This document shows, in pieces, positions 21,704-64,000 of a stretch of DNA of 64,000 nt. The stretch lies in NCBI RefSeq assembly GCF_000231405.2, contig NZ_CP007032.1:558001-622000 (forward strand), read 5' to 3'. Below the pieces are notes generated by a model. The model did not search any database. It had not been told where the DNA came from and saw only the letters and a list, made by a program, of their open reading frames with translations. This stretch comes from Desulfitobacterium metallireducens DSM 15288. GTDB taxonomy: Bacteria > Bacillota > Desulfitobacteriia > Desulfitobacteriales > Desulfitobacteriaceae. The first letter of the stretch is position 1, and every line of letters begins with the position of its first letter. The translations under genes and the position numbers were made by a program.

Positions 21704-21704
21704 G

Positions 21705-24064: not shown

Positions 24065-24081
24065 AAAATTGGTCGTAAGGG

Positions 24082-24100: not shown

Positions 24101-24139
24101 ATTGTGCATGCTGTATTTGAAAAAAATTACATAAGTTAA

Positions 24140-24454: not shown

Positions 24455-24468
24455 AGTATATAAATTTT

Positions 24469-24684: not shown

Positions 24685-24712
24685 TGGTAGTAAACAGCAT
24701 TAAATCATTTCA

Positions 24713-24736
24713 GGAGTCGCCGTTCATGGCGACTCC
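24713..24736 (+). repeat. Cassette 3'-end hairpin
   Basis: GGAGTCGCC, loop GTTCAT, GGCGACTCC, followed by AAATATGGGGGCGACC, nearly the same as at 21705-21740. Confidence 0.75.
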
Positions 24737-24760
24737 TAAATATGGGGGCGACCAACTTCA

Positions 24761-24836
24761 TTTAAACAGAGTATTCCCGAGACTTAGCATAGATCCAAGT
24801 GGTTAGGACGTATTGGGAATCCCCGAAATGTTATAC
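24761..24836 (+). repeat. attC-like site 5
   Basis: TTTAAAC to GTTATAC, 76 bp. GTATTCCC pairs with GGGAAT-C; the centre is CTTAGCATAGATCCAAGTGG. The flank CGACCAACTTCATTTAAAC is complementary to its own cassette start GTTAAATAAAATTGGTCG at 24058. Confidence 0.8.
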
Positions 24837-25028
24837 GCCATGCCCCAGCTAGGGCTAAAAATACAAGCCACTATTGCCAAAGTAGATAGGCTTCGGATTT
24901 GGGAAGTTTCTTGTAACAACACATAAAGATCTATGTATAACGTTACCCCTTTATGCAAGGAGGGACGAGGTTGTCCCGAATCATTTTGGATTTAATTCGA
25001 AAACTTGCTTGCCTTGAGGTGCATTGGA

Positions 25029-25547
25029 ATGAAAGAAGATAGGTCTATATTAAGCATAAGAGAAATCGAAATAACAGATGCAAAGGAGTTATTAGAACTA
25101 TGCTTAAAGCTTGATAAAGAGACCCAATTTATGATGTTAGAAGAAGGCGAAAGACAACAAGCTGTTGACAAACAACAAGATCAAATTAATCGAGTATTGT
25201 CTACTCATAATCAAATAATTTTCATTGCTACGAATGGTGACCAAATTGTTGGTTATCTAGGAGCATACGGTGGAGAATATAGACGGAACGCGCATAGTGC
25301 ATATATTGTTATCGGAATTCTTAAAGATTATATTGGGCAAGGAATTGGAACCAGGTTATTCCAGACGTTGGAACAATGGGCGTATAAATGTGGAATCCAT
25401 CGTTTAGAGTTGACCGTAATGGCTCACAATCTACAGGCTTTTGCGTTATACAAGAAAGTCGGTTTTACGATTGAGGGGATAAAAAAACATTCGATTCATA
25501 TTGATGGTAGTTATGTAGATGAGTATTATATGGTAAAACTGTTGTAG
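25029..25547 (+). CDS. GNAT N-acetyltransferase (cassette 6)
   Basis: About 172 residues from ATG 25029, with GAGGTG seven bases before; a TTG 24 bases earlier is possible. The acetyl-CoA pocket motif GQGIGTRLFQTLEQWA follows the strand SAYIVIGILKDYI, and the tail has the usual AHNLQAFALYKKVGFTIEG. This is the RimI/PhnO-like acetyltransferase fold, often with small-molecule or antibiotic substrates. Only gene of its cassette. Acetyltransferases are common integron cargo. The substrate is unknown. Confidence 0.88.
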   Translation: MKEDRSILSIREIEITDAKELLELCLKLDKETQFMMLEEGERQQAVDKQQDQINRVLSTHNQIIFIATNGDQIVGYLGAYGGEYRRNAHSAYIVIGILKDYIGQGIGTRLFQTLEQWAYKCGIHRLELTVMAHNLQAFALYKKVGFTIEGIKKHSIHIDGSYVDEYYMVKLL

Positions 25548-25590
25548 TTAAAAAGGGCTGATTAAGTCTAAATGCAAGCTGGGGGACGGT

Positions 25591-25665
25591 GTCTAACAAG
25601 GTGTTTTCGTAACGTTACCGATATGAATGTAGTATGGCACTACGGGACCCCCCGGGACGTTATAC
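25591..25665 (+). repeat. attC-like site 6
   Basis: GTCTAAC (full RYYYAAC match) to GTTATAC, 75 bp. Between them are CGATATGAATGTAGTATGGC and a short inverted pair TCGTAAC/CTACGGG. The flank AGCTGGGGGACGGT before it is complementary to AGCTAGGG/CGCCATGCCCC at its own cassette start (24830-24854). Confidence 0.85.
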
Positions 25666-25703
25666 GCCATCGCACTAGGAGTCTAGAGAAATGGGGGATT
25701 CAA

Positions 25704-26373: not shown

Positions 26374-26555
26374 GTGCGTCCTAGCAGGTCACACTTTCTA
26401 GCGGGGGAAGATCCAGCCAGGGTAAGGTCTAGCCAACCGCCCTGTATCGGGTCTTGGAAGTATTGTAGTACTGGAATGATTTAAGCGTAGACAGAAAATC
26501 AGCAAGGTAGAATTGACGGGATGGAAGCCAGCAGTGAATGTATATTGAGCCTAGC
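26374..26555 (+). mobile_element. Probable remnant of a group II intron 5' end
   Basis: The sequence starts GTGCGTCC, the standard group II 5' end, and continues with stretches such as GGGTAAGGTCTAGCCAACCG and AAGCGTAGACAGAAAATC that look like domain I of class C introns. No reverse transcriptase or domain V follows, so it is truncated; the end point is approximate. It cuts attC half-site 7 in the left arm. Class C introns are known to use attC sites as targets. The assignment is by eye and memory only. Confidence 0.5.
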
Positions 26556-26573
26556 CTAAGCGCTAATAAATTA

Positions 26574-39228: not shown

Positions 39229-41131
39229 GTGCGCCACGCATGGCGATTAACTAGACGGTGAAAGTCCGTTATGGGGGTATGTAGCGACCAACCATTAGCT
39301 TAAGGCAAGGGTGTCCATCGTGAGGTGGAATCTGAAGGAAGCCGGCGGCAAAGCTCCGACCCGAGGAACACGAACAGTATCAGGCGCAAAACGTGGGGTA
39401 AGGCTGCCATTCAAGCTGAAGCCCAAAAGCTACACGGATACGTTAGCGTAAATGCTGCGGGTACATGGAACGAAAGTGAATCGTCTTACCGTGGGAGGCC
39501 TCACGGACAGGTGGAAACAGAGTAAGAAACCTGGTTGAAACAAGATTTATCGTGAGGAGTCAGCTGAAGCCATAGTACAGAGGTGGTCTAGACACCGACG
39601 GAAGGGTTGAACCAAAGGAGGTGTGGGTCAATGAAAGTTACTGAAAGTGGTAATTCAAAACACAGACAACTTCGATTCGAAGACTATCTGCAAAGGGTAT
39701 CTGCGGAACAGAGAGAGTATGCGGAAGTGTGCGCGCCACCTAAGATGACTGAAACCGACAACACCAACACGAACAAGCAGACAGAAGGCTTGCTTAAGCA
39801 AATTCTTAGCGTCGAAAACCTAAACCGAGCTTACAAACAGGTGAAGAGAAATAAAGGCGCAGGTGGAATCGATGGTATGCAGGTGGATGAACTTCTACCC
39901 TTCCTGAAAGAGCACAAGAATGAACTTTTGCAATCCCTCTGGGACGGTAAATACCGTCCAAAACCCGTACGGAGGGTAGAGATACCCAAAGAGAACGGAA
40001 AGACTAGAAAACTGGGAATACCAACAGTCGTAGACCGGTTAATCCAACAAGCGATTACTCAAGTCCTGAGCCCCATCTTTGAAGAGCAGTTCTCAAACAA
40101 CAGTTTTGGATTCCGACCGAACCGCAGTGCTCATGATGCACTGTTGAAATGCCAGGGTCATATTACAGAAGGATACAAATATGTAGTAGACATGGACTTA
40201 GAGAAATACTTTGATACGGTCAACCAGAGCAAACTGATTCAAATTCTGTCTGAGACAATAAAAGACGGGCGAGTCATCTCACTCATCCACAAATTCCTAA
40301 GAGCAGGAGTTATGGTGGATGGTTTGTTTGAGGAAAGCCCCGAGGGCGTACCGCAAGGCGGACCCCTTAGTCCCTTACTTGGAAACATTATGCTCAATGA
40401 ATGTGACCACGAGTTGGAAAAGCGAGGGCATAGATTTGTGCGTTATGCAGACGATATGATGATTTTTTGCAAAAGCAAGAAAGCAGCAAAGCGTGCGCTT
40501 GACCATATACTTCCGTTCATCGAAGGGAAGTTATTTCTCAAGGTAAACAGGGAGAAAACTAAGATCTCGCACGTAAACTATGTAAAGTATTTGGGATATA
40601 GCTTTTACATCTACAGAGGATTTGGGCGACTGAGAATCCATCCTAAAAGCATCCAGAAACTCAAAGATAAAATCCGAGAAGTGACTGGACGGAGCAACGG
40701 GATGGGAATCGAAGAACGGAGAACAAAACTCAACCAGATAGTGCGAGGCTGGACGAACTACTTTAAACTGGCCGACGCTAGAAATCTACTTAAGACACTG
40801 GATGAGTGGCTAAGAAGTCGCATACGGATGGTTACCTGGAAGCGATGGAAGAGAACCCGAACGCGATTTGAAAACCTCAAGAAAGTAGGTATACAAGAGG
40901 AACAAGCGTGGATGTGGGCAAACACAAGAAAAGGCTATTGGCGTACTGCCCATAGCCCGATTTTGACAAAAGCCTTATCCAATAAGCGTTTCGAACGGAT
41001 TGGATATCTCAGTTTTAGTGAATGTTATTCTGCGAAGTAACGCGTAAACTTTGGAAGCGCCGTATACCGAACGGTACGTACGGTGCTGTGGGAGGTCGGC
41101 TGACCAAATAATGGTCAGCCTCCTACCCGAT
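39229..41131 (+). mobile_element. Complete group II intron
   Basis: A 1.9-kb ribozyme-type retroelement. The 5' end is GTGCGCCACG at 39229, followed by conserved domain I features (GTGAAAGTCCG, AAGGGTGTCC, GTGAGGTGGAATCTGAAGG). One maturase gene lies in domain IV. Domain V is at about 41056-41088, with the AGC triad, CCGTAT and ACGTACGG. Domain VI follows, and the intron ends CCTACCCGAT at 41131. It sits five bases after the T tract of a terminator hairpin and three bases before the stop codon of the DUF11 gene on the other strand, so it damages no gene. Insertion next to terminators is a habit of class C introns; I do not fix the class. Confidence 0.92.
39631..41040 (+). CDS. ltrA: Group II intron reverse transcriptase/maturase
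   Basis: About 469 residues from ATG 39631, which has AAAGGAGG nine bases before; an upstream TTG is in frame but unsupported. RT blocks: IDGMQVDEL, YRPKPVRRVEIPKENGKTRKLGIPTV, the FGFRPNRSAHDAL block, GVPQGGPLSPLLGNIML, and the catalytic YADD in FVRYADDMMIFCKS. The maturase (X) domain follows, with GWTNYFKLADARNLLKTLDEWLRSRIRM. There is no HNH endonuclease at the C-terminus, so it uses an endonuclease-free target route. Intact, so the intron is probably mobile. Confidence 0.95.
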   Translation: MKVTESGNSKHRQLRFEDYLQRVSAEQREYAEVCAPPKMTETDNTNTNKQTEGLLKQILSVENLNRAYKQVKRNKGAGGIDGMQVDELLPFLKEHKNELLQSLWDGKYRPKPVRRVEIPKENGKTRKLGIPTVVDRLIQQAITQVLSPIFEEQFSNNSFGFRPNRSAHDALLKCQGHITEGYKYVVDMDLEKYFDTVNQSKLIQILSETIKDGRVISLIHKFLRAGVMVDGLFEESPEGVPQGGPLSPLLGNIMLNECDHELEKRGHRFVRYADDMMIFCKSKKAAKRALDHILPFIEGKLFLKVNREKTKISHVNYVKYLGYSFYIYRGFGRLRIHPKSIQKLKDKIREVTGRSNGMGIEERRTKLNQIVRGWTNYFKLADARNLLKTLDEWLRSRIRMVTWKRWKRTRTRFENLKKVGIQEEQAWMWANTRKGYWRTAHSPILTKALSNKRFERIGYLSFSECYSAK

Positions 41132-52055: not shown

Positions 52056-52237
52056 TGAGGTTAGATATTGGTTAAAAAATAGCACGTAATCCGTTAAAAG
52101 TCAAGGTAAGGACTGGAAGCTGGAAAGATCGATAACAGGGAAAAAGATAGGGACATTCGGATGAGAACTTGAACGTTTCCTATAATCGTGCTAATCTTTA
52201 CTTATTATGAAGTAGTTCTGTAAGAAGAATGTAACTA

Positions 52238-52332
52238 AATAGAGGGAGCTTAAGGAATTGAGCTGAGAGGGCAGTTGAGACCACTGCCGACCGTGATACC
52301 TGATCTGGATAATGCCAGCGGAGGGACAGTAA
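52238..52332 (+). promoter_or_regulatory. TPP riboswitch of the luxE-luxC-SDR-thiN operon
   Basis: Signatures in order: AGGGAGCTT, TTGAGCTGAGAGG, a variable stem GGCAGT/ACTGCC, GTGATACCTGATCTGGATAA and TGCCAGCGGAGGGACAG. It is a plus-strand aptamer divergent from the first, about 180 bases away, and a terminator follows. Confidence 0.95.
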
Positions 52333-52343
52333 TATTGGAGTAA

Positions 52344-52373
52344 AAAACCGCTCATTTTCTAATGAACGGTTTT
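52344..52373 (+). terminator. Expression-platform terminator of the second TPP riboswitch
   Basis: AAAACCG-TCATT pairs with AATGA-CGGTTTT, then T-rich sequence. It lies 36 bases before the LuxE-like ATG. Confidence 0.85.
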
Positions 52374-52408
52374 TATTATTAATTTTTAACAGAAGGAAGT
52401 AGAATTTG

Positions 52409-53536
52409 ATGAGGGTAGACTCAGAAAAAATGGTTGAAGACATTTTTGACTATATCGAGAAGTTTAAAAATAAAGCGAGTAACTCTCCGGAGATTAGTGA
52501 CGATTTTAATGCTTTAGCTCTCAAACTTTTTCAATTTCAATATCAATGGAATCCCGTCTATAGAAAATATTGTCAGCTTCGTCGCAAGTTACCCCTAACC
52601 GTGAAGAGGTGGCAGGATATTCCCCCGATTTCTTATCAGATGTTCAAGGAGTCTACTTTAGCGTGTGAACCTATCGACGAGACGATTCCTGTTTTCATGA
52701 CGAGTGGCAGTACCAATCCGGAAAAAAAGGGGCGTAATTATCATCCCACTTTTAAGGTCTGGGATGCATCGATGATTTTTCCTTTTAAAAATTATGTTCT
52801 TCCGGATCGGGAGAAAATGAGGATTTTAGTATTGTCCCCGGGCGATGATGTAAATCAAAACTCTTCCTTGTCGCGATATCTATCTCGAGCGTTTAAGGAA
52901 TTGGGCAGTGAGGGAAGTCAGCTTTTCTTCCATCAAGACATCGGGTTTGATATGCCAACCTTAGTTGCTGCGCTTAAACAAAGCGTCGCAGAGCAGGAAC
53001 CCGTTTTACTGCTGGGCGCGACTTTTGCTTATGTTCATTTCATCGATTATTGTCAGGAGCAAGGGGAGAAGTTCCAATTGCCGAAAGGAAGTCGGGTGTT
53101 TGATACAGGCGGCTTAAAAGGGCAAGCACGTGAAGTGATGACGGATGAATTATATGAATGGTTCAAAGCGTTCTTTGACGTTCCACGGGAGCTCTGTATC
53201 AATATGTACGGAATGACGGAGCTCTGTTCACAAATGTATGATCGCACAATTGAAACGTATCTCTCTGGGGGTCAGGTCATTTATGATAAAATCGGGCCAG
53301 CCTGGACCCAAATCCAGGTTTTAGATCCGGACACGCTGGAAGCTGTTCCTGATGGTGAAATAGGTTTGCTGGCTCATTATGACTTAGCCAATTGGAATTC
53401 GTGTTTAGCTGTTTTAACAGAGGATATGGGATACAAAACTCCAGACGGTTTTGTTTTGCTCGGGAGATCGAAGGGGGCTGAGCCCCGCGGGTGTTCGATT
53501 GCGGTTGATCAGTTGATCGCTGAGCAGAGGAAGTGA
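52409..53536 (+). CDS. LuxE-like acyl-protein synthetase (carboxylate-activating)
   Basis: About 375 residues from ATG 52409, nine bases behind AAGGAAG. Sequence order fits the LuxE/ANL-like family: VYRKYCQLRRKLP and IPPISYQMFKEST near the start, the nucleotide-binding PVFMTSGSTNPEKKGRNYHP near residue 90, MYGMTELCSQMYD near 270 and LLGRSKGAEPRGCSIAV at the end. LuxE activates a carboxylic acid as acyl-AMP and passes it to LuxC. Its place directly behind a TPP riboswitch is unexpected, since no luxAB is present, and argues for an acid related to thiamine. The next gene overlaps or abuts it. Confidence 0.85.
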   Translation: MRVDSEKMVEDIFDYIEKFKNKASNSPEISDDFNALALKLFQFQYQWNPVYRKYCQLRRKLPLTVKRWQDIPPISYQMFKESTLACEPIDETIPVFMTSGSTNPEKKGRNYHPTFKVWDASMIFPFKNYVLPDREKMRILVLSPGDDVNQNSSLSRYLSRAFKELGSEGSQLFFHQDIGFDMPTLVAALKQSVAEQEPVLLLGATFAYVHFIDYCQEQGEKFQLPKGSRVFDTGGLKGQAREVMTDELYEWFKAFFDVPRELCINMYGMTELCSQMYDRTIETYLSGGQVIYDKIGPAWTQIQVLDPDTLEAVPDGEIGLLAHYDLANWNSCLAVLTEDMGYKTPDGFVLLGRSKGAEPRGCSIAVDQLIAEQRK

Positions 53537-53541
53537 GGAAT

Positions 53542-54993
53542 ATGGAACACCAGTTAATTCCGGCTTATTTTGTCCCTGAAGGCCTTACATTTGACGCTTA
53601 TCAGGAACGACGGTACGGTGGGTATACGCTTCAATTTCCTGAATTAAATGGAGGAATTGTAGCTGAAGTTTGTGCTGAGGTGATTAAGCATCGTAACGCA
53701 TATTTAGTCAATTTAACGACGGATCAAATTATTGAACGGATTGATCAAGCAGTTCAACTTTGGCTAAACCCAGATTATCCGTTGCGTAAAATTGCTGAAC
53801 ATGTGCTTCCTCCTCTGACAGGGTATGATGGGGAAACAATTCGCTTAGAATTAAAACGCTACATGCGTGGATTTCGAAAAAAGGATATTTATCGTTTTTT
53901 AGATGAAGAGTTCGATAATCCGAGCTTACTGGATGGCTTTCGGCCTCGAAAAACAGGGGGGATGAGCCGGGTATATGGACCAGAGCTGATTTTTCATGTT
54001 TTCTCTGGAAATGTCCCGGGTCTGCCCCTTTGGAGCATAATCATGGGGCTTTTGCTTAAATCCGGAGGGATCGGGAAATCTTCTTCGGCGGAACCTTTGT
54101 TGCCCGTGCTTTTTGCTCAAAGCTTAGCTCAGGTTGATCGGGAATTGGCGAATTGCTTCGCGATTCTTCCGTGGAAAGGGGGCACGGCTGATTTAGAAGA
54201 GCCGGTGCTTAAGTCGGTTGATGCGGTTATTGTTTATGGTTCGAGTGAGACGGTCCAGAAGCTTCGTAAGAAGGTTACTAAGAATATTCCGGTATTGGGT
54301 TACGGACATAAGGTGAGTTTTGCCGCGATCGGTAAGGAGGCGTTAACGGCTGATCGCTACCAAGACACGGTTCACCGGTTAGCTCATGATGTGATGGTTT
54401 ATGATCAGCAAAGCTGTTTATCGCCCCAAGCCGTCTGGGTTGAAGAAGGTGGGGCGATTAGCGTGAGGCAATTTGCTCAGTTACTCGCCGCTGAACTCGA
54501 GAATTACGAAAAGCGCCGACCTCGGGCTAAACTGACGGACGAAGAAGCGATTGCCATCCGTTCAGTTCGCAATCGTTATGAAGCACTATCCTTCCAGGAT
54601 GATGAAATCGAAGTTTATGGAAGTGCAGGAGGAACGGAATGGACGGTGATTTACGAGGGTAAACCTGGGTTTGAGGGATCTCCTCTTAACCGGACCATTC
54701 ATGTTTATGCGTGTCATGAACTCAAGGAGTGTGTAAGCGACTTACGTCCTTACCGTGACTATTTACAAACGGTTGGACTTGCCGTGAGTCCTAACCGTTT
54801 AGAGGATATCTCAGTGCATTTAGCACGCGAAGGGGTAACGCGGATTACGGCTCTCGGTCAAATGACGTTAGGGGTTCCGGGGTGGCATCATGACGGACGC
54901 TTTAATTTGTTAGATTTGGTTCGCTTTGTCGATATTGAACGCAGTGTTGAGCAGTTAGCGGAAATCTATGACCCTGATGTGGAAGCCTACTAA
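53542..54993 (+). CDS. LuxC-like acyl-CoA/acyl-protein reductase
   Basis: About 483 residues from ATG 53542; GTG 53533, overlapping the luxE stop, is the alternative. It is an aldehyde-dehydrogenase-fold reductase of the LuxC type: VFSGNVPGLPLWSIIMGLLLKSGGIGKSSSAEPL near residue 155, AVIVYGSSETVQKL near 228, and the catalytic Cys in VYDQQSCLSPQAVWVE near 288. LuxC reduces the LuxE-bound acyl group to an aldehyde with NADPH. Together the two genes form a carboxylic acid reductase pair. In the thiamine context I infer a small heteroaromatic acid rather than a fatty acid, without proof. Confidence 0.85.
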   Translation: MEHQLIPAYFVPEGLTFDAYQERRYGGYTLQFPELNGGIVAEVCAEVIKHRNAYLVNLTTDQIIERIDQAVQLWLNPDYPLRKIAEHVLPPLTGYDGETIRLELKRYMRGFRKKDIYRFLDEEFDNPSLLDGFRPRKTGGMSRVYGPELIFHVFSGNVPGLPLWSIIMGLLLKSGGIGKSSSAEPLLPVLFAQSLAQVDRELANCFAILPWKGGTADLEEPVLKSVDAVIVYGSSETVQKLRKKVTKNIPVLGYGHKVSFAAIGKEALTADRYQDTVHRLAHDVMVYDQQSCLSPQAVWVEEGGAISVRQFAQLLAAELENYEKRRPRAKLTDEEAIAIRSVRNRYEALSFQDDEIEVYGSAGGTEWTVIYEGKPGFEGSPLNRTIHVYACHELKECVSDLRPYRDYLQTVGLAVSPNRLEDISVHLAREGVTRITALGQMTLGVPGWHHDGRFNLLDLVRFVDIERSVEQLAEIYDPDVEAY

Positions 54994-55021
54994 ATGCTAG
55001 TCAGCAGAGAGAAGGGAAGCT

Positions 55022-55783
55022 ATGCAAGATAGAGTTGTTTTAGTCACTGGAGCAAGCCGTGGAATTGGCAAAGCGATTGCCAAGAATTTCGGGAAAAAGC
55101 AAGCGATGGTGATCGTTAATTACCTAAAAAGTGAAGATTTAGCAGAACAGGTGGTCAAAGAAATTGAAGATGAGGGTGGACATGCCCTAGCCTTGCAGGC
55201 CGATGTGACACAAGCTTCTGAAGTCAACGGTATGGTTAAGGCTATCTTAGATAATTTAGGAACGATTGATGTTGTTGTGAACAATGCGTTGCATCATTAT
55301 ACGTTTAATCCTAAGACGCGCAAGACGGCTTGGGAGTTGGAATGGGAGGATTATCAGGGGCAAATTGACGGTAGCCTTAAAGGAACCTTTAACCTCTGTA
55401 AGGCTGTATTGCCCCAGATGAAGCGTCAAGGGTATGGGCGAATCATTAATATGGTCACAAATCTTATGGATTTTCCGGTCGTGCCGTACCATGATTATAC
55501 GACGGCGAAGGCAGCTGTTTTAGGATATAGCCGTAATTTAGCTAAAGAGCTCGGACCGTTTGGAATTACGGTTAACTGTGTAGCGCCAGGTTTGACTTAT
55601 CCTACGGACTCAAGTCGGGAGACCCAGGAAGATGTCCGGGAAATTTTGATTCGTTTAACGCCGATGGGCCGGTTGGCCTTGCCGGAGGATATTGCCGGTG
55701 CCGTTGCTTTCTTGGCTTCGAAGGAGGCCGGGTTCATTACTGGACAGTGCCTTCGTGTCGATGGCGGACTAACGATGACCTAG
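55022..55783 (+). CDS. Short-chain dehydrogenase/reductase (FabG-like)
   Basis: 253 residues. Cofactor motif VTGASRGIGKAIAK at residue 8 (NADPH type), NNALHHY near 91, catalytic Ser region NMVTNLMDF near 144, Tyr-x3-Lys in HDYTTAKAAVLGYSR near 161, and the C-terminal GFITGQCLRVDGGLTMT. The Ser position is Thr-like in sequence, which should be checked. In this operon it could reduce the LuxC aldehyde to an alcohol, the form used by ThiM or ThiD. AGAAGGGAAGC precedes the ATG. Confidence 0.88.
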   Translation: MQDRVVLVTGASRGIGKAIAKNFGKKQAMVIVNYLKSEDLAEQVVKEIEDEGGHALALQADVTQASEVNGMVKAILDNLGTIDVVVNNALHHYTFNPKTRKTAWELEWEDYQGQIDGSLKGTFNLCKAVLPQMKRQGYGRIINMVTNLMDFPVVPYHDYTTAKAAVLGYSRNLAKELGPFGITVNCVAPGLTYPTDSSRETQEDVREILIRLTPMGRLALPEDIAGAVAFLASKEAGFITGQCLRVDGGLTMT

Positions 55784-55827
55784 ATTGAAAATTTTGATCG
55801 AAGAAAAAACAGAGGAGGTATAAATTG

Positions 55828-57378
55828 ATGAACGGAAAAGTAAATGATGATTTTTTTCAAAAAAGTGTTTTGCCTTTTACGGGTGAATCAAAATCCGAAG
55901 TTATCATTGGACCTCATATGGGGGTAGATGCAGCTATACTTAAAATCGGCGATCAGTATATGGCTGTCGCTGAAGATCCCATCTTTCCCAGCATGACGAT
56001 GTCGGCAGATGATTTCGCCTACGTCACGGTACATATTGGAGCAAGTGATGTTGCTGTCATGGGGATCGAACCCCGATTTATGACGTATTCATTACTTCTC
56101 CCTCCAGAGACTGAAGAAAGTTATGTTGAAGAACTGATTAAAAGCATTAGCAAGTATGCTCATGAATTAGGAATTTCTATCGTGGGTGGACATACGGGTT
56201 ATTATGGTGCTGTTGTGGTCCCTACCATCGGTGGAATTACCGTTTGGGGACTCGCTGATCAGTATATTTCTCCAATGGGGGCTCAAATTGGGGATGATGT
56301 TCTCATCACCAAAGGTGCCGCGATTGAGGCAGGAGCTTTATTGGGTTATGAGCATAAAGATTTTTTGTCTACCGTCGTCGATCCTTTGCTGGTCCAGAAA
56401 GCAGCAGCAAGAATTAAAGAAGTGTCAGTGGTTAAAGATGCGCATATCGCTGCAACTGTAGGTGGGGTTCACGCCATGCATGACGCTACTGAAGGCGGCG
56501 TGAAGAGAGGCTTATGGGAAATTGCTCAAGCTTCGGGTAAAGGGATGCTCATTGATCAGGATAAGATATTTGTACCTGAAGATATTGCTGCTCTTTGTCA
56601 GTATTTGAAGCTTAATCCCTTGGAAATCATCAGTGAAGGGACCTTAGTTTTGACCTGTGCACCGGAGAAAACGGCAGAATTAAGGGCTGCCTTTATGACG
56701 CAAGGAATCGAATCGGCTATAGTCGGTAAAGTGACGACTCCAGAAGAAGGCTGTTACATCCTCGATGAAGGTAATAAATATGAGCTTATCCCGCCTGCTA
56801 TTGATAAATTCTGGGATGTATTCTTTAGTTCACTCTCTGAAGCTCCAACCACGCTGTGCACAGAGCTTGAAACGGCGGTAAACAAACTCTGCCAAGAGAA
56901 TATCTATAGAATGATACCTGAAATTGGGGCCAACATTGCCTATGCATCGCCTGAGAGCCAATCTCTTGACGAAGTAGCTGGAATTCCCGGAAGAATACTC
57001 CGCTATAAAAACACGACTACGACACTCGGCCAGCCTGAACTCGGGGGTTCCGTAAATATGGCTGAAACCTTACTCAGTATTCGTAAATATTTCCCGCTGA
57101 CACGGTGTCTCATCAATATGAGAAATACCCCAGCGATCCTTAAGGCTTGTCGTGAGGGAGGATTAACCGTAGCCGATATGCCAACAGTCGCTGAGTATCG
57201 ACAATGTGACGGCGATTTTATCCGGGATCTAGAAGGAATGCTTCAGAAATTCGATCGACTCCCCGATGTGATTACCATCCCGGATCGTATAAATTTGGAG
57301 ATTCTCATCCTTATTCCCGATGAAACCTTAGATGAATTGATTGAAAAAGTTTTAAAAGTGAATACTTTACTAAAATAA
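55828..57378 (+). CDS. PurM-superfamily/ThiN fusion protein
   Basis: About 516 residues from ATG 55828 behind AGAGGAGGT. Residues 1-330 are a PurM/HypE/ThiL-like ATP-binding fold: GPHMGVDAAILKIGDQYMAVAEDPIF, HIGASDVAVMGIEPRF, IVGGHTGYYGAVVVPTIGG and HDATEGGVKRGLWEIA. Residues about 345-516 resemble ThiN, the archaeal-type thiamine-phosphate synthase domain: IPEIGANIAYASPES, VAGIPGRIL, GGSVNMAETLLSIRKYFPLTRCLINMRN and PDVITIPDRINLEIL. ThiL, the TMP kinase, is in the PurM superfamily, so one chain might make and phosphorylate thiamine phosphate, or sense it. The fusion and TPP control make the thiamine link firm; the activity is open. Confidence 0.75.
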   Translation: MNGKVNDDFFQKSVLPFTGESKSEVIIGPHMGVDAAILKIGDQYMAVAEDPIFPSMTMSADDFAYVTVHIGASDVAVMGIEPRFMTYSLLLPPETEESYVEELIKSISKYAHELGISIVGGHTGYYGAVVVPTIGGITVWGLADQYISPMGAQIGDDVLITKGAAIEAGALLGYEHKDFLSTVVDPLLVQKAAARIKEVSVVKDAHIAATVGGVHAMHDATEGGVKRGLWEIAQASGKGMLIDQDKIFVPEDIAALCQYLKLNPLEIISEGTLVLTCAPEKTAELRAAFMTQGIESAIVGKVTTPEEGCYILDEGNKYELIPPAIDKFWDVFFSSLSEAPTTLCTELETAVNKLCQENIYRMIPEIGANIAYASPESQSLDEVAGIPGRILRYKNTTTTLGQPELGGSVNMAETLLSIRKYFPLTRCLINMRNTPAILKACREGGLTVADMPTVAEYRQCDGDFIRDLEGMLQKFDRLPDVITIPDRINLEILILIPDETLDELIEKVLKVNTLLK

Positions 57379-57444
57379 GAACACAAAAAATCTCAAGTTT
57401 TCAGCACATTACTAGCACTGGAATCCTCAGATTTTTAGAAGAAA

Positions 57445-57488
57445 ATAGCCACGACTTGGCAAGTCATAAAACGCCAAATCGTGGCTAT
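57445..57488. terminator. Terminator after the thiN-fusion operon
   Basis: ATAGCCACGA-TTGGC and GCCAA-TCGTGGCTAT form a long stem between convergent genes. A run of T is seen on the plus strand soon after (CCCATTTT). Confidence 0.75.
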
Positions 57489-57618
57489 CCCATTTTACAG
57501 GTCATTCATACTCTTATGCGCATTATATGAATATTTGTGCATTAAATTTACTGTAGATTATGCTTAATTTCTACGTTCCTTTTGTGTAGGGTATCTTCTT
57601 GAATATGCATAAAGATAT

Positions 57619-58170
57619 TCAGAATCTCATTCTCACCGTGAATAATAAATATAATATAACGGGTAATCCTACGATAGCAGATAGTATTGTGATTGCCGTA
57701 TGTACTTTTTCCTCATCTCGTAATATAAATAATAAAAACTTATACCCTAAAATACCAATCCATCCACCCAAACAATTTAGAATTATATCATCAATGTCTG
57801 ATGCTCCAATGCCTAAAAGTCCCTGAATGATTTCAACAAATAAACTTACTATAAATATAAACAACAGATTGGTTTTTACTCTTTTATCATTTTTGAATAA
57901 TGGCAAATATATACCGAGGGGAATAAAGATAACTATATTGCCAACCACATTACCAAAAGCGAATTTTTTTATAGTGGCAGAGTTGTTAAATATATATTCC
58001 ATTATACTATGAAAAGGAATGAGATTGATTGATCTAACCAAAGTCCTTTGACTATTAAACAACTCAGAAAGTGAAACTCTTGATAAGAACAATATTTTAA
58101 TTAACAAAAGTATATAACAAATAAAAATACCATATAAAAAGACTGTTTTAATTCGCTCTCGTTTATTCAT
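57619..58170 (-). CDS. VanZ-family membrane protein
   Basis: About 183 residues from ATG 58170, eight bases behind GGAGG; an earlier in-frame start at 58188 is less likely. About four membrane helices: FLYGIFICYILLLIKILFL near 10-28, GNVVGNIVIFIPLGIYLPLF near 75-95, LLFIFIVSLFVEIIQGLLG near 104-122 and the last near 160-180. VanZ hallmarks are NLIPFHSI, GN-x2-GNI and the acidic Asp pair in GASDIDDIILNCLGG. VanZ proteins are linked to glycopeptide resistance, but most are of unknown role. It follows attC site 8 on the same strand and may be a cassette gene whose own attC is missing. Confidence 0.85.
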   Translation of the reverse strand: MNKRERIKTVFLYGIFICYILLLIKILFLSRVSLSELFNSQRTLVRSINLIPFHSIMEYIFNNSATIKKFAFGNVVGNIVIFIPLGIYLPLFKNDKRVKTNLLFIFIVSLFVEIIQGLLGIGASDIDDIILNCLGGWIGILGYKFLLFILRDEEKVHTAITILSAIVGLPVILYLLFTVRMRF

Positions 58171-58280
58171 AATACCTCCATTTTTCATTTTATTCCTGCT
58201 TGTTCTCTGACGTTTAGTTTATAAATAATCGGTAGTTCACATTTTTCTACAAGAGCGCACTATCAATCACACACCGTAAT

Positions 58281-58298
58281 CCGCGAATGGACGCGCGG
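58281..58298 (-). repeat. Cassette 5'-end hairpin, minus orientation
   Basis: On the plus strand CCGCG and CGCGG bracket the loop containing AATGGACG (minus GTCCATT). It lies after the GTTATCC box of the inverted site 8, as in the plus-strand cassettes. Confidence 0.65.
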
Positions 58299-58315
58299 TT
58301 CTTGCGTACGGTATC

Positions 58316-58391
58316 GGATAACGTCCCGAAGGTTCCCGCTGCATCTTAACCGCATTCATCTGTTCTAAGTGGCGGGAACGTGTTGTTATCC
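58316..58391 (-). repeat. attC-like site 8, inverted
   Basis: On the minus strand GGATAAC to GTTATCC, 76 bp. The core is GTTCCCGCCACTTAGAACAG, then ATGAATGCGGTTAAG and GCAGCGGGAAC, nearly identical to site 10 on the plus strand. Here both outer flanks are complementary to each other (GTACG-CATCGGATAAC and GTTATCCGATACCGTAC), as expected for a circular cassette or for a site that was never split. Confidence 0.85.
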
Positions 58392-58416
58392 GATGCCGTA
58401 CGTACCCAGACTCAGA

Positions 58417-58436
58417 GGCCGCCATGGACGGCGGCC
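58417..58436 (-). repeat. Cassette 3'-end hairpin, minus orientation
   Basis: GGCCGCC and GGCGGCC around ATGGAC (minus GTCCAT), the same 20 bases as at 62385-62404 in opposite orientation. Confidence 0.8.
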
Positions 58437-58482
58437 CCTTGAGCTTCGTCCCATTTAGTTCGCTATAAAAGAATGATGTGAA

Positions 58483-58953
58483 TTACTTGTAAACCATTTC
58501 GAATTCCTCACACACTACTAACATTTCATCACTAAATTCCACTTTAATCTCTTCTAACTGCCGATTAAAAGCACTTATATGAACCTCTCGCCAAAATTTT
58601 AGTGACTTGTCACCTTCCCCTTCAATTTTAGCAAATTCCTCAGTTACCTCGTTGAACGGCATCAAGTTCACCTTTTGGGTTTCAATAACACACTGGGCAA
58701 TACTTTGCCAATCTGTAATAATACTAAGGTCTCCAGCTTTAGGTAATGTTTCCCCCTCTATTTCATAAAAATAATACAATCCAGTAGTAGCTCTTTTAAT
58801 GCCATTTTTTACTAATTCTGACAAATCATTGGCGCCTTTTTCATTGTCACAAAAATGCCATGAGGTATATTTTTTATCTGTACCAATAATATCCTCGCCA
58901 ATAAAATTTATATAATTTACCCACATTTCTTGTATCGATTTATGTTCTTGCAT
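58483..58953 (-). CDS. ASCH domain protein (inverted cassette)
   Basis: About 156 residues from ATG 58953, behind GGGGAGTC. It has the ASCH layout: YTSWHFCDNEKGANDLSELVKNGIKRATTGLYYFYEIEGETLPKAGDLSIITDWQ, then CVIETQKVNLMPFNEVTEEFAKIEGEGDKSLKFWREVH. ASCH domains are RNA-binding, related to PUA, and some are amidohydrolases for modified cytidine. The gene is on the minus strand, followed by attC site 8 in matching orientation, so it is a cassette lying opposite to the rest of array 2. Its start end is not recognisable. Confidence 0.8.
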   Translation of the reverse strand: MQEHKSIQEMWVNYINFIGEDIIGTDKKYTSWHFCDNEKGANDLSELVKNGIKRATTGLYYFYEIEGETLPKAGDLSIITDWQSIAQCVIETQKVNLMPFNEVTEEFAKIEGEGDKSLKFWREVHISAFNRQLEEIKVEFSDEMLVVCEEFEMVYK

Positions 58954-59254
58954 CACGTTCCGACTCCCCTATATATAGTTTTGGTAGTTCGCTTTATCTT
59001 ACAAATGCGTCTCAGTATAAGAATAACCGGAAGTTTAAAAATTTTTCTCTTATTCGGTTTAGAATACAAATATAGTAACAAATAATGGCTGAAAATCGTG
59101 ATTAGATTATCGGGCAGTTTAACATAGTTAATTATCGGACCCAGAAGGATATTTATCCCAGTAGGACGAAGACATATAAAGTAAAAATTTGCGAACCTTG
59201 TTCGGTAATACCTCCGTATTTGGAGATTATACGAACCTGGTTCATTAATAAAAC
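58954..59254. other. Left flank of the plus-strand part of array 2
   Basis: 300 bases without a gene. Near its right end, GAACC-GTTCG-TAAT and ATTA-CGAAC-GGTTC (about 59196-59241) form an imperfect stem-loop with CTCC/GGAG in the centre, just before the GTTATAT box at 59255. It could be an attI or a diverged attC. Confidence 0.4.
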
Positions 59255-59347
59255 GTTATATGACAGAATATGCAACCTATGAATGTGTAAATAGGGCCTT
59301 AATTTAACTATCATGGAAAATCTTTTTGTCGTTTGGGAGTGTTAAAC

Positions 59348-59887
59348 ATGGCTCAAATAGATTCAATAGAAACACAAAGATTAGTGTTAAGAGAGTTATC
59401 GTCGGAAGATCTTGAATCTGTTCATAGAGTAAAGGCTAATAAGGAAGTGGTGAAGTTTCTCACCTGGGGACCAAACAATCTAGCCGCAACACGAAATTCT
59501 CTCGACAAACAAATTGGAATGCAGGAAGATAACGATAGAAAGATATTTGTGCTGGGCATTGTTCTGAAGGAGTCAAACCAACTCATAGGAAATTGTCTTT
59601 TGACTCAGAACGATTTTAGAACCGCAGAGTTCGGATATTTCATTCACCCGGATTATTGGCAGGTTGGTTACGGGACTGAAACTGCAAAAGCACTCATCGG
59701 ATTCGGGTTTAACACGTTAAAATTACATCGGCTAATCGCTACCTGTGATCCCGAAAACGTAGCTTCTATCAAGGTTCTTAAAAAATCCGGCATGAGGTTG
59801 GAAGGACATTTTATTAAAGCTCAATATGTAAAAGGGTTATGGCGGGATAACATGTTATTTGCGATGTTGGTTGAAGAGTATATTTAA
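59348..59887 (+). CDS. RimJ/RimL-type GNAT acetyltransferase (cassette)
   Basis: About 179 residues from ATG 59348, eight bases behind GGGAG. The opening IETQRLVLRELSSEDLESVHRV and the core AEFGYFIHPDYWQVGYGTETAKALIGFGFNTLKLHRLIATCDPENVASIKVLKKSGMRLEGHF are typical of the RimJ/RimL family, which acetylates protein N-termini or small molecules. The Q-V-G-Y-G-T loop binds acetyl-CoA. Only gene of its cassette. Its attC is split by IS copy 2. Confidence 0.9.
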   Translation: MAQIDSIETQRLVLRELSSEDLESVHRVKANKEVVKFLTWGPNNLAATRNSLDKQIGMQEDNDRKIFVLGIVLKESNQLIGNCLLTQNDFRTAEFGYFIHPDYWQVGYGTETAKALIGFGFNTLKLHRLIATCDPENVASIKVLKKSGMRLEGHFIKAQYVKGLWRDNMLFAMLVEEYI

Positions 59888-59917
59888 GTATGCGTCTGGG
59901 GGCATATTCCATCATAT

Positions 59918-61517
59918 AAACCAGCTAATTGCTGTCAAGTAAAAGTTTCTCTAAAGTAATTGACAAGAAAAATAGGTATAGCAAAGCTGGCCTACGTGTT
60001 GTAAGTTTGTAAAAAGGGTATGTAAATAAAAGGGATATCTAAGTCTATAGAGAATTGCTAATTAGAGATTGAAAAAGGCTGCTGTGAGGATAAAATCCCA
60101 TAGATCATCCTGAGCATTTTGTTAGCCGTGGCAATAATAGCTACCTTAACCGGTTTACCTTCATTAATTTTCCGAAGGTAAAAGTCTCTAAGAATTGGAT
60201 TTAAGGGACCGCTAGCCCTGTTACTAATCCCCGCTACAGTGGCTTGATAAATTGCTTTTCTAAGATAGGGTGACCCTCTCTTAGAGATCTTGTTATTACT
60301 CGATTTAAACTTTCCCGATTCAAATACAGATGGATCAATGCCTGAAAAGGCGACCAACTGTTTTGCACTGGGGAATCTTTTAATATCACCAATTTCAGCA
60401 AGAATGGTGGTGGCTGTAGCCTCTCCTACGCCAGGGATAGAACGGAGAAGAGGATAATCAGAGGAGAAGTTTGCCCAAAAAACCATTTGAGCCCGTATGT
60501 CAGTCAGAATGTTTTGTTGGGATAGGAGGAGTTCAATGTACATCCTTAAAACCCGTATATTTGACTGTTGGGCCCGGTTAAAAGGCAAACTTTCCTTAGC
60601 AGCCAATATGAGTTCATCGGTCTTTAATTCGTTCCAGTCTCTTGATTTCTTTGCAGGCTTAAGACACTCGATAATTTGCTCCCGTTCTGCGGATAAAATT
60701 GCTTTTGGCGATGGAAAGGTAGAAAGAACTCGTAAAGCAGTAGGACTACATAAGTGAGCAAATACGGATTCAAACTTAGGAAAAACAAGATCTAAAACGG
60801 AGCGAAACTTAAGTTGGGTTTCAGTATAAAGTGTATTAAAGCTATCATATTGCCGACAGAGGTTCTGCAATTCCAAGATGTGATCCTCAACAGGTTTGGC
60901 TTCAATAAATTCATTCAAATAATAAACCTGAGCAATCCGATTCGCATCAATGGGGTCAGTCTTAACCTTGCGGACGGATTTCTTTTTTTCAGCATGAGTT
61001 TGGAGAGGATTAAGAACGATCACTTTATAACCCGCATCTTGAAAGTAAGCGGTAATAGGCTTGGAATAGTTACCCGTTGCTTCCATAACTACATGAGGGC
61101 GTTTACCAGTTTCACTTTCAAGTTTAATAAGCTTATCTGTTAACCTGGACATATCACTCGGAGAATGCAAGAAAGGAAAAGGTTTGGAAACAGACTCTTG
61201 ATATCCTTTAAACAAAGCAGCTACACTCTTAGACTTAGAAATATCAATACTTAACACAGGAACATCAATCATGAAAAACCTCCTCTTTTACCGGGTTCCA
61301 TCTTTAACAACCACCTTTAGGTTCGCGTTGTGATACGGGCTCAAGGCCCAACCAGCTCAATCAAAGTATTGGTGCCAAAGAGGGTGTGAACACTTTATGC
61401 GACGGGATCTAGGTCCCAACACGGCATACGTTCTTTACCCAGTTTTTTTTAAGTATAAAGGAAAATAAAAGAAAAATGGTCCATACCCAGATTGAACTGG
61501 TTATGAACCTATAATAC
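59918..61517 (-). mobile_element. IS110-family (IS1111-type) element, copy 2, inside an attC site
   Basis: The same 1.6-kb element as at 18875-20474, exactly 41,043 bases further on, same orientation, no difference noticed by eye. The left flank is CATCATATAA and the right flank AACACGGCATTCACG, so it entered the first box of an attC site just as copy 1 did. Boundaries are uncertain by about five bases. Confidence 0.87.
60058..61272 (-). CDS. IS110-family DEDD transposase, copy 2
   Basis: 404 residues, identical in protein sequence to the product of 19015-20229. Catalytic residues are as described there (SIDISKSKS, VVMEATGNYS, TDPIDANRIA; later GSPYLRKAIYQATVAG). Sequence identity shows recent transposition or gene conversion. 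Direct-repeat copies 41 kb apart could recombine and delete the spore and thiamine block between them. Confidence 0.95.
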   Translation of the reverse strand: MIDVPVLSIDISKSKSVAALFKGYQESVSKPFPFLHSPSDMSRLTDKLIKLESETGKRPHVVMEATGNYSKPITAYFQDAGYKVIVLNPLQTHAEKKKSVRKVKTDPIDANRIAQVYYLNEFIEAKPVEDHILELQNLCRQYDSFNTLYTETQLKFRSVLDLVFPKFESVFAHLCSPTALRVLSTFPSPKAILSAEREQIIECLKPAKKSRDWNELKTDELILAAKESLPFNRAQQSNIRVLRMYIELLLSQQNILTDIRAQMVFWANFSSDYPLLRSIPGVGEATATTILAEIGDIKRFPSAKQLVAFSGIDPSVFESGKFKSSNNKISKRGSPYLRKAIYQATVAGISNRASGPLNPILRDFYLRKINEGKPVKVAIIATANKMLRMIYGILSSQQPFSISN

Positions 61518-61588
61518 GAACACGGCATTCACGAAACTTGTCAAGATGAAAGTAGTATGACGCTTCGTGAATACCCAGAACGTTATAC
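61518..61588 (+). repeat. attC-like site 9 (split by IS copy 2)
   Basis: GAACACGGCATTCACGAAAC, then CAAGATGAAAGTAGTATGAC, then GCTTCGTGAATACCC to GTTATAC at 61582-61588. Nearly the same as site 1. The left box piece ATATAA is at about 59915-59920. Confidence 0.85.
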
Positions 61589-61605
61589 GAAACCGTACGC
61601 GAAGA

Positions 61606-61623
61606 CCGCGCGTCCATGCGCGG
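61606..61623 (+). repeat. Cassette 5'-end hairpin followed by T run
   Basis: CCGCGC, loop GTCCAT, GCGCGG, then ATTTTTT. Besides its place in the cassette pattern it could terminate transcription coming from the previous cassette. Confidence 0.75.
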
Positions 61624-61705
61624 ATTTTTTTGAGCAAGGCGTGTAGTCGTTTGTGTCAGGTTTATATTGCTGTCGAAGGAAGATTAAAGAGGGGTCTTTT
61701 ATATC

Positions 61706-62314
61706 GTGGAGCGGAAGACAGTATTTGTCATTGGCGATAGCGTTTCAATACACTATGGCCCATTTTTAAAGGAAATGATAAAAAGTAAATATAATTTCGG
61801 CCGGACAAGTGAAATAGTTGATGGAGATTTGGATAAACCTGTTGGTGCTAATGCCGGTGATTCTAAGATGGTCCTCGAATATTTAAGAGACGAATATAAC
61901 AAGGGAACAACGTACAACATCTTGCTTTTGAATTGCGGCCTACATGATATAAGAATAGACAGGGTTACAAAACAGATTCAAGTCAAGAAATGGGAATATG
62001 AGAAAAAATTAAATCTAATATCAGACCTTGCTTTAAAGATGTCTGAGCGAGTAATGTGGATTACAACTACACCTGTACTGGATGTTATACATAATCGTAG
62101 AAATGAAGGCTTTTTACGGTATAACGAGGATGTAATTCTCTATAATAGCATAGCAGAGAATATAATGGGCAAGTACCAAATATCATGTGTTGACCTTTAT
62201 ACATTTACAAATAGTTTAGGAGATGATATTTATTCTGATCACGTACATTTTAAAGAATCAGTACGGGCACTACAGGGGGCATTCATTGCAGGACACTTAC
62301 TTTGCAACCGATGA
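61706..62314 (+). CDS. SGNH-fold hydrolase (cassette)
   Basis: 202 residues from GTG 61706. Block I VFVIGDSVSIHYGPFLKEM at residue 6, block III LLLNCGLHDIRID near 70 (Gly/His-Asp instead of Gly-x-Asn), and the terminal DIYSDHVHFKESVRALQG with Asp-x-x-His near 180. No signal peptide, so it acts in the cytoplasm, unlike the secreted SGNH protein at 28484. The cassette ends are complementary: GTTATACGAAACCGTACGC and GCGTACGGCTTCGTATAAT, 17 of 19. Substrate unknown. Confidence 0.8.
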   Translation: MERKTVFVIGDSVSIHYGPFLKEMIKSKYNFGRTSEIVDGDLDKPVGANAGDSKMVLEYLRDEYNKGTTYNILLLNCGLHDIRIDRVTKQIQVKKWEYEKKLNLISDLALKMSERVMWITTTPVLDVIHNRRNEGFLRYNEDVILYNSIAENIMGKYQISCVDLYTFTNSLGDDIYSDHVHFKESVRALQGAFIAGHLLCNR

Positions 62315-62384
62315 TTATTCTTTCTATATTAACTTTTAAGATCTAATTTAAGTACTTAAGGTTTGATGGAGGTACAAGGGAAGG

Positions 62385-62404
62385 GGCCGCCGTCCATGGC
62401 GGCC
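62385..62404 (+). repeat. Cassette 3'-end hairpin
   Basis: GGCCGCC, loop GTCCAT, GGCGGCC. Followed by TCTGGCTTCGCGGGGCGTACGG, leading into attC site 10. Confidence 0.8.
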
Positions 62405-62430
62405 TCTGGCTTCGCGGGGCGTACGGCTTC

Positions 62431-62506
62431 GTATAATAGCCGGTTCCCGCCACTTAGAATAGATGAATGCGGTTAAGGCGCAGCGGGAACCTGCGGGACG
62501 TTATAA
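62431..62506 (+). repeat. attC-like site 10
   Basis: GTATAAT to GTTATAA, 76 bp. GGTTCCCGC pairs with GCGGGAACC; the middle CACTTAGAATAGATGAATGC is shared with inverted site 8. Confidence 0.85.
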
Positions 62507-62562
62507 GAAACCGCTAAGTCTTTTTATTTATTAATTATGCAGGTTTTGTGGGAGGATCAGTT

Positions 62563-63048
62563 TTGGATTTAGTAGCACCATCAATCTCAAACATTAGGCG
62601 TGCTTTACCAGAGGAGGCTGTTTTGCTCACGGAAATTGCATTTCGCTCCAAAGCTCACTGGGGCTATGACTTGTCTTTTATGGAGCAGTGCCGAAATGAC
62701 TTAACAATATTCTCAGACAATATTACTAATAATTTGGTTTTTGTAATTGAGGCAGATGGGGATATTGTGGGTTTCTATGAACTACGTGGAAAGGTTCCTG
62801 AAGCTAACTTGTATTGGCTATTCATGGATCCGAAAGTAATAGGATGTGGATATGGAAAAAGGTTATGGTTACATGCGGCTGAAATCTCCAAAGGCCTCGG
62901 GTTCGAGTACATGTTGATCAAGAGCGATCCATATGCGGAAGGATTTTATTTAAGAATGGGAGCCAAGAGAATAGGAAAACTTCCTTCGACCGCAATACAA
63001 GGACTGATGTTGCCTTTGCTATGTTATCAGTTATTAGTAAAGGGCTAA
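62563..63048 (+). CDS. GNAT acetyltransferase (cassette)
   Basis: About 161 residues from TTG 62563, six bases after GGAGGA; GTG 62548 in frame is less likely because it would put the binding site inside the gene. The GNAT core is NLYWLFMDPKVIGCGYGKRLWLHAAEISKGLGFEYMLIKSDPYAEGFYLRMGAKRIGK, with the acetyl-CoA loop G-C-G-Y-G-K. Only gene of its cassette; ends GTTATAAGAAACCGC and GCGGCTTCTTATAAAC are complementary. Confidence 0.87.
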   Translation: MDLVAPSISNIRRALPEEAVLLTEIAFRSKAHWGYDLSFMEQCRNDLTIFSDNITNNLVFVIEADGDIVGFYELRGKVPEANLYWLFMDPKVIGCGYGKRLWLHAAEISKGLGFEYMLIKSDPYAEGFYLRMGAKRIGKLPSTAIQGLMLPLLCYQLLVKG

Positions 63049-63118
63049 TTGTTTCTAATTTAAGTTGGCAACAGTGTAATGGTTAAGTGTTTGCATGTTG
63101 GTCTTTTCCGCGGCTTCT

Positions 63119-63194
63119 TATAAACAGCGTATTGCCGACACTTAGAAAAGATGCATGTGGTTAGGTCGCATCGGCAATACGCAAGACGTTATAT
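63119..63194 (+). repeat. attC-like site 11
   Basis: TATAAAC to GTTATAT, 76 bp. GCGTATTGCCGA pairs with TCGGCAATACGC; the centre is CACTTAGAAAAGATGCATGT. Confidence 0.85.
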
Positions 63195-63210
63195 AAAATC
63201 GAGCGCAAGG

Positions 63211-63230
63211 CCGCCCCGTCCACGGGGCGG
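63211..63230 (+). repeat. Cassette 5'-end hairpin
   Basis: CCGCCCC and GGGGCGG bracket GTCCAC, 16 bases after the box of site 11. Confidence 0.75.
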
Positions 63231-63293
63231 AAGGTTCGATTATGGCAAACTTTATAGGCAATTTTATTTTATAAGAAGGGTACTAGATAATAC

Positions 63294-63893
63294 ATGAATT
63301 CAAAAGATATAATTAGATTTTTAAATATAGCTGAGAAATTGAAATGTGAATTACGCCATTCTTGGACATCTACGATGCGGCAAGAGAGTGTAGCAGAACA
63401 TAGTTGGAGACTTTGCATTTTTTCTTGGTTGATAAAAGACCAATTACAAGATCAATATGATATGGACAAAGTTATGAAAATGTGTTTGTTTCATGATTTG
63501 GGTGAAGCAATCACAAGTGATATACCAAGTTTTTGTAAAAATGAAGAAGATACCAGAAAAGAAGAGGCTGCAGTAAATCAAATAATCAGTATGCTTGATA
63601 ATGATTTGCGTTCTGAACTAGATAAGTTATTTATTGAAATGAAAGAACAACAGAGTAAGGAAGCTAGATTATTCAAAGCACTTGATAAATTAGAAGCGGT
63701 GATTCAGCATAACGAATCTCCGATTGAAACATGGATACCATTAGAATTCGAATTAAATAAAACATATGCAAATGAGGAAGTAAGAGGTATTGCCTTGTTG
63801 GAAGGCTTACGAGAAGTAGTAAGGCAAGATACCATAAAAAAGTTAGGTGATAAAGAAAAAGAATTAAGGGCCCGACGTCCTGTCGGTCTCTGA
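63294..63893 (+). CDS. HD-domain phosphohydrolase, YfbR/HDDC2-like (cassette)
   Basis: 199 residues. Metal ligands: His in SVAEHSWRLCIFSW near 34, His-Asp in CLFHDLGEAITSDIPS near 65, and a late Asp in FKALDKLEAVIQHNES near 129. The layout matches YfbR/HDDC2 5'-nucleotidases that hydrolyse deoxynucleoside monophosphates; HD dNTP-depleting enzymes are also known in phage defence. The last residues (RARRPVGL) are coded by the cassette 3'-end hairpin, so the gene runs into the recombination region. The ATG has a weak site (AAGAAGGGTAC). Single gene of its cassette. Confidence 0.85.
   Translation: MNSKDIIRFLNIAEKLKCELRHSWTSTMRQESVAEHSWRLCIFSWLIKDQLQDQYDMDKVMKMCLFHDLGEAITSDIPSFCKNEEDTRKEEAAVNQIISMLDNDLRSELDKLFIEMKEQQSKEARLFKALDKLEAVIQHNESPIETWIPLEFELNKTYANEEVRGIALLEGLREVVRQDTIKKLGDKEKELRARRPVGL
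63872..63886 (+). repeat. Cassette 3'-end hairpin inside the HD gene
   Basis: CCGAC, loop GTCCT, GTCGG, overlapping the last codons of the HD gene, followed by TCTGAATCTGGGGGCGCGC, the element also found before sites 2 and 5. Confidence 0.7.
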
Positions 63894-63913
63894 ATCTGGG
63901 GGCGCGCGACTTT

Positions 63914-63988
63914 ACATAACAAGGTGTTCCCGTAACTTTGTCAATATGAATGTAGAATGACGCTACGGGAACACCCAAAACGTTATAA
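63914..63988 (+). repeat. attC-like site 12
   Basis: ACATAAC to GTTATAA, 75 bp. GTGTTCCCGTA pairs with TACGGGAACAC; the centre CAATATGAATGTAGAATGAC is nearly identical to site 2. The flank GCGCGACTTTACATAAC is complementary to this cassette's own start at 63188. Confidence 0.87.
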
Positions 63989-64000
63989 AAAATATTAAAG

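Follow-up and report, generated by a model that had tools for sequence, protein, structure and literature searches.

In integrons of the Treponema denticola type, the integrase gene and the cassettes run in the same direction. The integron integrase IntI joins an attC folded from the bottom strand to a double-stranded attI. Insertion sequences of the IS1111-attC group of IS110 elements insert in attC sites. In Firmicutes, IntegronFinder 2.0 recorded a single complete integron together with a few CALIN (PMC9024848). The I2 helix of the integron integrase has been described as necessary for cassette capture, as present in no other protein, and as the innovation behind integrons (PMC7790495), and the origin of I2 and attC has been stated as a chicken-and-egg problem (PMC4792948).

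The window analyzed here is a stretch of 64,000 nucleotides, positions 558001-622000 of the single 3.18 Mb contig (C1) of the Desulfitobacterium metallireducens genome (G000). attC sites were located with a covariance model trained on 24 attC from this genome. The model gave 57 genome-wide matches, part of which had been recovered by an earlier hand-written scan. Nearly all of the matches lie within a few arrays, in tandem and in one orientation with genes between them, as in integron cassette arrays. In chromosome coordinates these are a main array at 411577-450655 and groups at 578471-583668 (window 20471-25668), 619513-621991 (window 61513-63991), 671965-678610, and 2056611-2062561, to which a few single sites are added. 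In the attC alignment (A1) AAC and ACGTTA are almost invariant, and the arms vary yet pair, as in a structure-conserved hairpin with a GTT/AAC crossover. attC matches were present in 28 of 398 sampled genomes of the phylum.

Ten attC sites lie in the window. Nine of these (20471, 21748, 23130, 24759, 25590, 61513, 62430, 63117, and 63913) are on the + strand. The tenth, site 8 (chromosome 616313-616392), is the sole site on the - strand, confirming the opposite orientation reported in the initial annotation, and it ranks 10th among the 57 matches. It stands between an ASCH-domain gene and a VanZ-like gene. An unfiltered scan of positions 57000-60100 with the full model revealed no second attC near either gene above 11.2 bits, and the idea of a hidden site beside them was dropped. 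The features of the locus are listed in Table 1.

Table 1. Features of the site 8 locus and of the array to its right, in window coordinates
Feature	Position	Strand	Evidence or remark
VanZ-like gene, 189 aa, downstream of site 8	57619-58188	-	PF04892, 2.9e-27
START stem-loop ccgcgcGTCCATtcgcgg (one mismatch), VanZ leader	58278-58300	-	aligned with START hairpins of about ten cassettes
X-class START flank, VanZ cassette (outer stem, right arm)	58304-58322	-	same type as other cassette starts
Site 8 attC	58313-58392	-	covariance model R1, 83.3 bits
Site 8 R' box GTTATCC	58316-58322
Site 8 R'' box GGATAAC	58385-58391
X-class END flank, ASCH cassette (outer stem, left arm)	58385-58409	-	17/19 complementary to VanZ START; X-class matrix
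END stem-loop ggccgccGTCCATggcggcc, ASCH cassette	58413-58440	-	100% copy at 62381-62408; hairpin scan; fold z -4.6
ASCH-domain gene, 157 aa, upstream of site 8	58483-58956	-	PF04266, 1.7e-24
attI-upstream region	59084-59191	+	homologous DNA in G006 (from 59127 on) and at chromosome 666493-666641 (from 59084 on)
attI-like site: a pair of 13-nt palindromes (CGAAC-N3-GTTC) at a distance of 40 nt, followed by the crossover ACGTTAT (59253-59259)	59192-59259	+	67-81% identity to G006, G026, G027, and G028 sites
First cassette after attI (GNAT, PF13302)	59255-59921	+	start GTTATATGACAGAATATGC pairs with end GCATATTCCATCATATAAAC; attC interrupted by IS110
attC, remainder of the GNAT cassette site after IS110	61513-61591	+	covariance model
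attC, SGNH-like cassette, X-class	62430-62509	+	86% inverted copy of site 8
attC, second GNAT cassette	63117-63197	+	covariance model
attC, HD-domain cassette, last in array	63913-63991	+	next chromosome attC only at 671965

Elsewhere in the window, the cassette group at 20471-25668 comprises five + strand attC, the first interrupted by the IS110 copy at 19015-20229. This copy is one of four IS110 copies that abut attC (window 19015-20229 and 60058-61272; L013 10511-11725 and 17075-18289), and every time the right end of the element, gaactggttatgaacctataatacgaac (...tactaac in one copy), precedes the attC remainder. Group II intron regions occur at 26407-26564 and 39314-41131, one of them near the same cassette group. 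A TPP riboswitch (52232-52343, + strand) heads a set of LuxE-like, LuxC-like, short-chain dehydrogenase, and AIRS-ThiN genes (52232-57378) that is unusual for thiamine control. An empty-site comparison via the AIRS-ThiN gene was abandoned, as the sole related genome with the gene (G017) has different neighbors.

Cassette ends were compared by a pairing score, which considers only sequence external to the R'' and R' boxes and measures START-to-END complementarity beyond the invariant core. Across 133 cassettes from ten genomes the START of a cassette was found to pair with its own END, as had been proposed, with a mean score of 8.48 versus 2.60 ± 0.18 in 300 permutations. The mean was still 7.5 in the 63 cassettes whose END resembles no other START. 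In G000 the mean scores were 6.2 for own-end pairs, 2.6 for the two flanks of one site, and 2.25 for all other pairs; in the nine other genomes own-end pairs averaged 9.5 and same-site pairs 3.0. The class 1 and class 2 cassettes read for comparison, a small control of five, showed pairing of about 7-11 nt, and the end pairing in the present arrays is a longer version of this already known property.

The outer flanks of site 8, CGTACGGCATCGGATAAC and GTTATCCGATACCGTACG, are indeed complementary to each other (94% over 18 nt), with 17 of 19 positions paired. Among the 56 sites scored in the genome this is the top same-site match, with a score of 13 where the next are 10, 8, and 8 and the mean is 2.6. 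It had been supposed that such a match occurs elsewhere only between the two ends of one cassette, and that neighbors from different cassettes should not match. Neither statement holds, as neighboring cassettes sometimes match because several share one end class. The same-site score is 10 at chromosome 674414 of G000, and it reaches 13 and 11 in an intact array of genome G030 in which the neighboring cassettes keep their own partners (scores of 14 and 14, and of 11 and 12). The two cassettes at the G030 junction scoring 13 (393749) carry different genes and have their own partners intact, and the step from complementarity to a single cassette therefore fails. Thus, the anatomy of site 8 had been read correctly, but its assignment to one cassette from the flank match cannot be sustained, since X-class neighbors match too.

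Both flanks of site 8 belong to this X class. The VanZ START reaches 14 with three other X-class ENDs (674414, 425767, and 426846), compared with 13 for its ASCH neighbor. X-class pairs that are not partners have a mean score of 8.1, and X-X neighbors recur in G000 with same-site scores of 10 (674414), 8 (676270), and 8 (425767). Conditioned on class, the site 8 score is therefore far less striking. The X class accounts for about 10 of the 55 ENDs, and 4 of these 10 reach 13 with the VanZ START; from this, about 7% of X-class STARTs are estimated to encounter an END matching this well by chance.

The sequences beyond the flanks are also of familiar types. The VanZ START type recurs in the cassette starts after sites 619513, 419380, 425087, 673677, 676270, and others. 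The beginning of the cassette at 419449 shares 76% identity with the VanZ leader over 80 nt, and the ASCH tail matches the cassette that ends at 426846 with 85% identity over 86 nt. Judged by sequence, both are ordinary X-class cassette ends, the VanZ leader a START and the ASCH tail an END. That the same leader might precede VanZ as a normal cassette, a point raised in the initial annotation, was borne out in part; the leader occurs on normal cassettes, but a VanZ cassette with its own END was not found elsewhere. In other genomes no attC of this type was detected near ASCH relatives. Plasmids held relatives of ASCH and VanZ at less than 60% identity only, and viral contigs gave four weak VanZ matches and no ASCH. 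GC-rich stem-loops with a GTCCAT loop are found at the START and END of many cassettes, always directed with the cassette (for example at 61606-61623, 62385-62404, 63212-63231, and 58415-58438).

Beyond the ASCH gene lies the attI-like site, which is most likely the attI of the locus. Its relatives in G006, G026, G027, and G028 stand at the heads of integrases or arrays, and its core, with the palindromes at a spacing of exactly 40 nt ahead of the crossover, is found again at three G026 loci and one G028 locus. The predicted attI adjoins the first cassette here, and relatives adjoin integrase 3' ends, which abut the site in G026 and G027. The integrase gene expected beside attI is missing, and ASCH-attC-VanZ is found there in reverse. 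The DNA at 59084-59259 is homologous to DNA beside integrase genes or array heads in these four genomes, so the foreign DNA on the ASCH side ends before 59084; the junction suggested to lie within 58954-59254 is thereby bounded. A degenerate ASCH cassette start at 59027 (GTTATTCTTATACTGAGACGC) was rejected, as it scores only 2 with the ASCH END. Wrong-strand insertion at attI was also dismissed, given that attI is uninterrupted and ASCH is located outside. In genome G028 (L084:341-2519 and 7186), reversed attC likewise lie beyond an attI-like site, several kb apart, with a transposase-like ORF between.

Site 8 is probably the ordinary ASCH-attC-VanZ junction of two cassettes of the same class, X, that have lost their outer ends and lie inverted beside attI. 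The ASCH END and the VanZ START would pair because cassette flanks are a matched pair and both ends are X-class. The two cassettes would be what remains of a short array, reversed beside an attI-headed one (GNAT, SGNH, GNAT, HD) that has lost its integrase gene; the ASCH cassette would have lost its start and the VanZ cassette its attC end. Both flanks, both stem-loops, the 80-nt leader, and the 86-nt tail match ordinary cassette ends in G000 arrays. The genome-top same-site score, with its chance estimate of only about 7%, counts against an ordinary junction, as does the failure to find a separate ASCH or VanZ cassette in other genomes. Except for the ends of the X-class SGNH cassette, no partner START for the ASCH END and no partner END for the VanZ START was found nearby on either strand, and two losses must therefore be assumed. 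Partner loss is common, with 19 of 50 neighboring site pairs in G000 scoring 3 or less (a count that includes missed sites and IS insertions), yet two losses are needed here. The same absence of partner ends is predicted if one two-gene circle (START-VanZ-ASCH-END-attC) had opened between VanZ and ASCH and joined the chromosome at that break, with attC and its own flanks intact. A flank score of 13 is typical of own-end pairs (22 of 87 reach at least 13), both genes are complete, and there is exactly one hairpin of each kind, START and END, with outer ends absent, as for a single hairpin-bearing cassette. Nevertheless, we regard entry of one circle as unlikely. We are aware of no integron reaction in which a circle opens elsewhere than at attC, a VanZ+ASCH cassette was not found, and the match at site 8 is no better than with other X-class ends. 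Furthermore, the outermost bases are GTAC at the ASCH END and CGCA at the VanZ START, a mismatch where co-evolved partners would match.

A lone ancestral site, the other origin offered in the initial annotation, is not supported by the low same-site scores of lone or isolated attC (2-5 in seven of the eight tested and 8 in one) compared with 13 at site 8. Neighbors can share one START, as at 857393 and 858506 in genome G012 (same-site score 14), and the locus could in principle descend from tandem copies of one VanZ+ASCH cassette, after deletions removed the first copy's start and the second copy's end. This is improbable, as a duplication and two deletions are required and a second copy of either gene is absent nearby. 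Site 8 and 62420-62513 form long inverted repeats (86% over 94 nt), and in Vibrio cholerae inversion of part of an array by an IS and inactivation of the integrase are documented (PMC11023631). However, there is little reason to favor inversion via these X-class repeats or via IS copies, with the flank match as a by-product, because exchange within the two attC cores would reunite partner ends on neither side. Such an inversion would account for the orientation and not for the flanks, and it may coexist with the ordinary junction.

Fold energies computed with DNA parameters were compared for circle attC (own END with own START) and for the same attC in the array. The circle form was on average 5.2 kcal/mol more stable, and it was the more stable form in 28 of 35 cassettes (Wilcoxon p = 7.8e-6). 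Site 8 in place has a computed energy of -26.9 kcal/mol, versus -8.9 kcal/mol for its core, with a continuous, circle-like outer stem. The two ends of a cassette may form an outer stem of 17-20 bp that would be complete only in the free circle. The greater stability of circle attC over array attC would favor capture over excision, and a circle-only outer stem would be a simple way of biasing a recombination system toward capture.

A tyrosine recombinase gene or remnant heads arrays on the cassette strand in G000 (411034-411465), G012, G026, G028, G030, and G328. Frameshifts or stops disrupt several of the copies; G027 has an intact one (418 aa), and the contig end truncates the one in G030. 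On alignment with IntI1 and IntI2 the array-head integrases show a gap of roughly 29 residues at the I2 region, which in IntI is inserted between catalytic-domain motifs. Their TIGR02249 scores are 188-206 bits in two pieces, below the cut-off of 265, versus 507 bits for IntI1 and 410 bits for IntI2, each in one piece. A canonical IntI was rejected as the enzyme, as no match in G000 exceeded the cut-off; at 1e-40 none was found in 41 genomes comprising this genome and relatives. The recombinase at chromosome 666788 was likewise rejected, as an IS91-type transposase ORF follows it. In a small tree, five array integrases lie near each other and separately from both IntI1/IntI2 and the IS91-linked group, some nodes being modestly supported; the frameshifted G012 copy entered this tree as a sequence fused across frames, solely to permit comparison. 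Their position makes the array-head integrases candidates for the enzymes that belong with the attC arrays. At 1534079-1534156 of G000, a 338-aa tyrosine recombinase gene is immediately followed by an isolated weak attC, which lies on the strand opposite to the gene.

We tentatively suggest an integron lineage in this Firmicute order and some other Firmicutes, in which the integrase could act on folded attC without I2 and a long, class-specific, circle-only outer stem might mark or stabilize circles for capture. If so, site 8 would be a natural integrated attC held in a circle-like fold. The broader system, with its proposed circle-only outer stem and candidate I2-less integrases, is of more interest than site 8, for which the one-circle reading is not needed. 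No report of such an I2-less attC-array system was found in the open literature, which is weak evidence of novelty with most subscription journals outside that scope.

The arrays resemble CALIN and sedentary chromosomal integron arrays in the R''/L''/L'/R' organization of attC, the GTT crossover, the one or two genes per cassette, the single orientation per array, the attI at the head, and the presence of IS inside attC. They differ in their Firmicute hosts, in end pairing of up to 17-20 nt versus 7-11 nt in the class 1 cassettes read, and in the GTCCAT-loop stem-loops at both cassette ends. The array integrase runs in the cassette direction, as in the Treponema denticola-type integron, a likeness of layout alone, and the IS110 transposase inserted in attC sites is like the IS1111-attC group by insertion site. 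With IntI (IntI1, IntI2, and VchIntIA) the array integrases share a tyrosine recombinase core, the C-terminal SPLD motif, and a SAM-like N-terminal domain, and the nearest solved structure is VchIntIA (2a3v). In contrast to IntI, they are without the roughly 29-residue I2, match TIGR02249 in two pieces below the cut-off, and carry, in the sole intact copy, an N-terminal extension of roughly 145 aa. attC/attI arrays headed by such an I2-less relative of IntI would represent either a natural intermediate or an independent solution.
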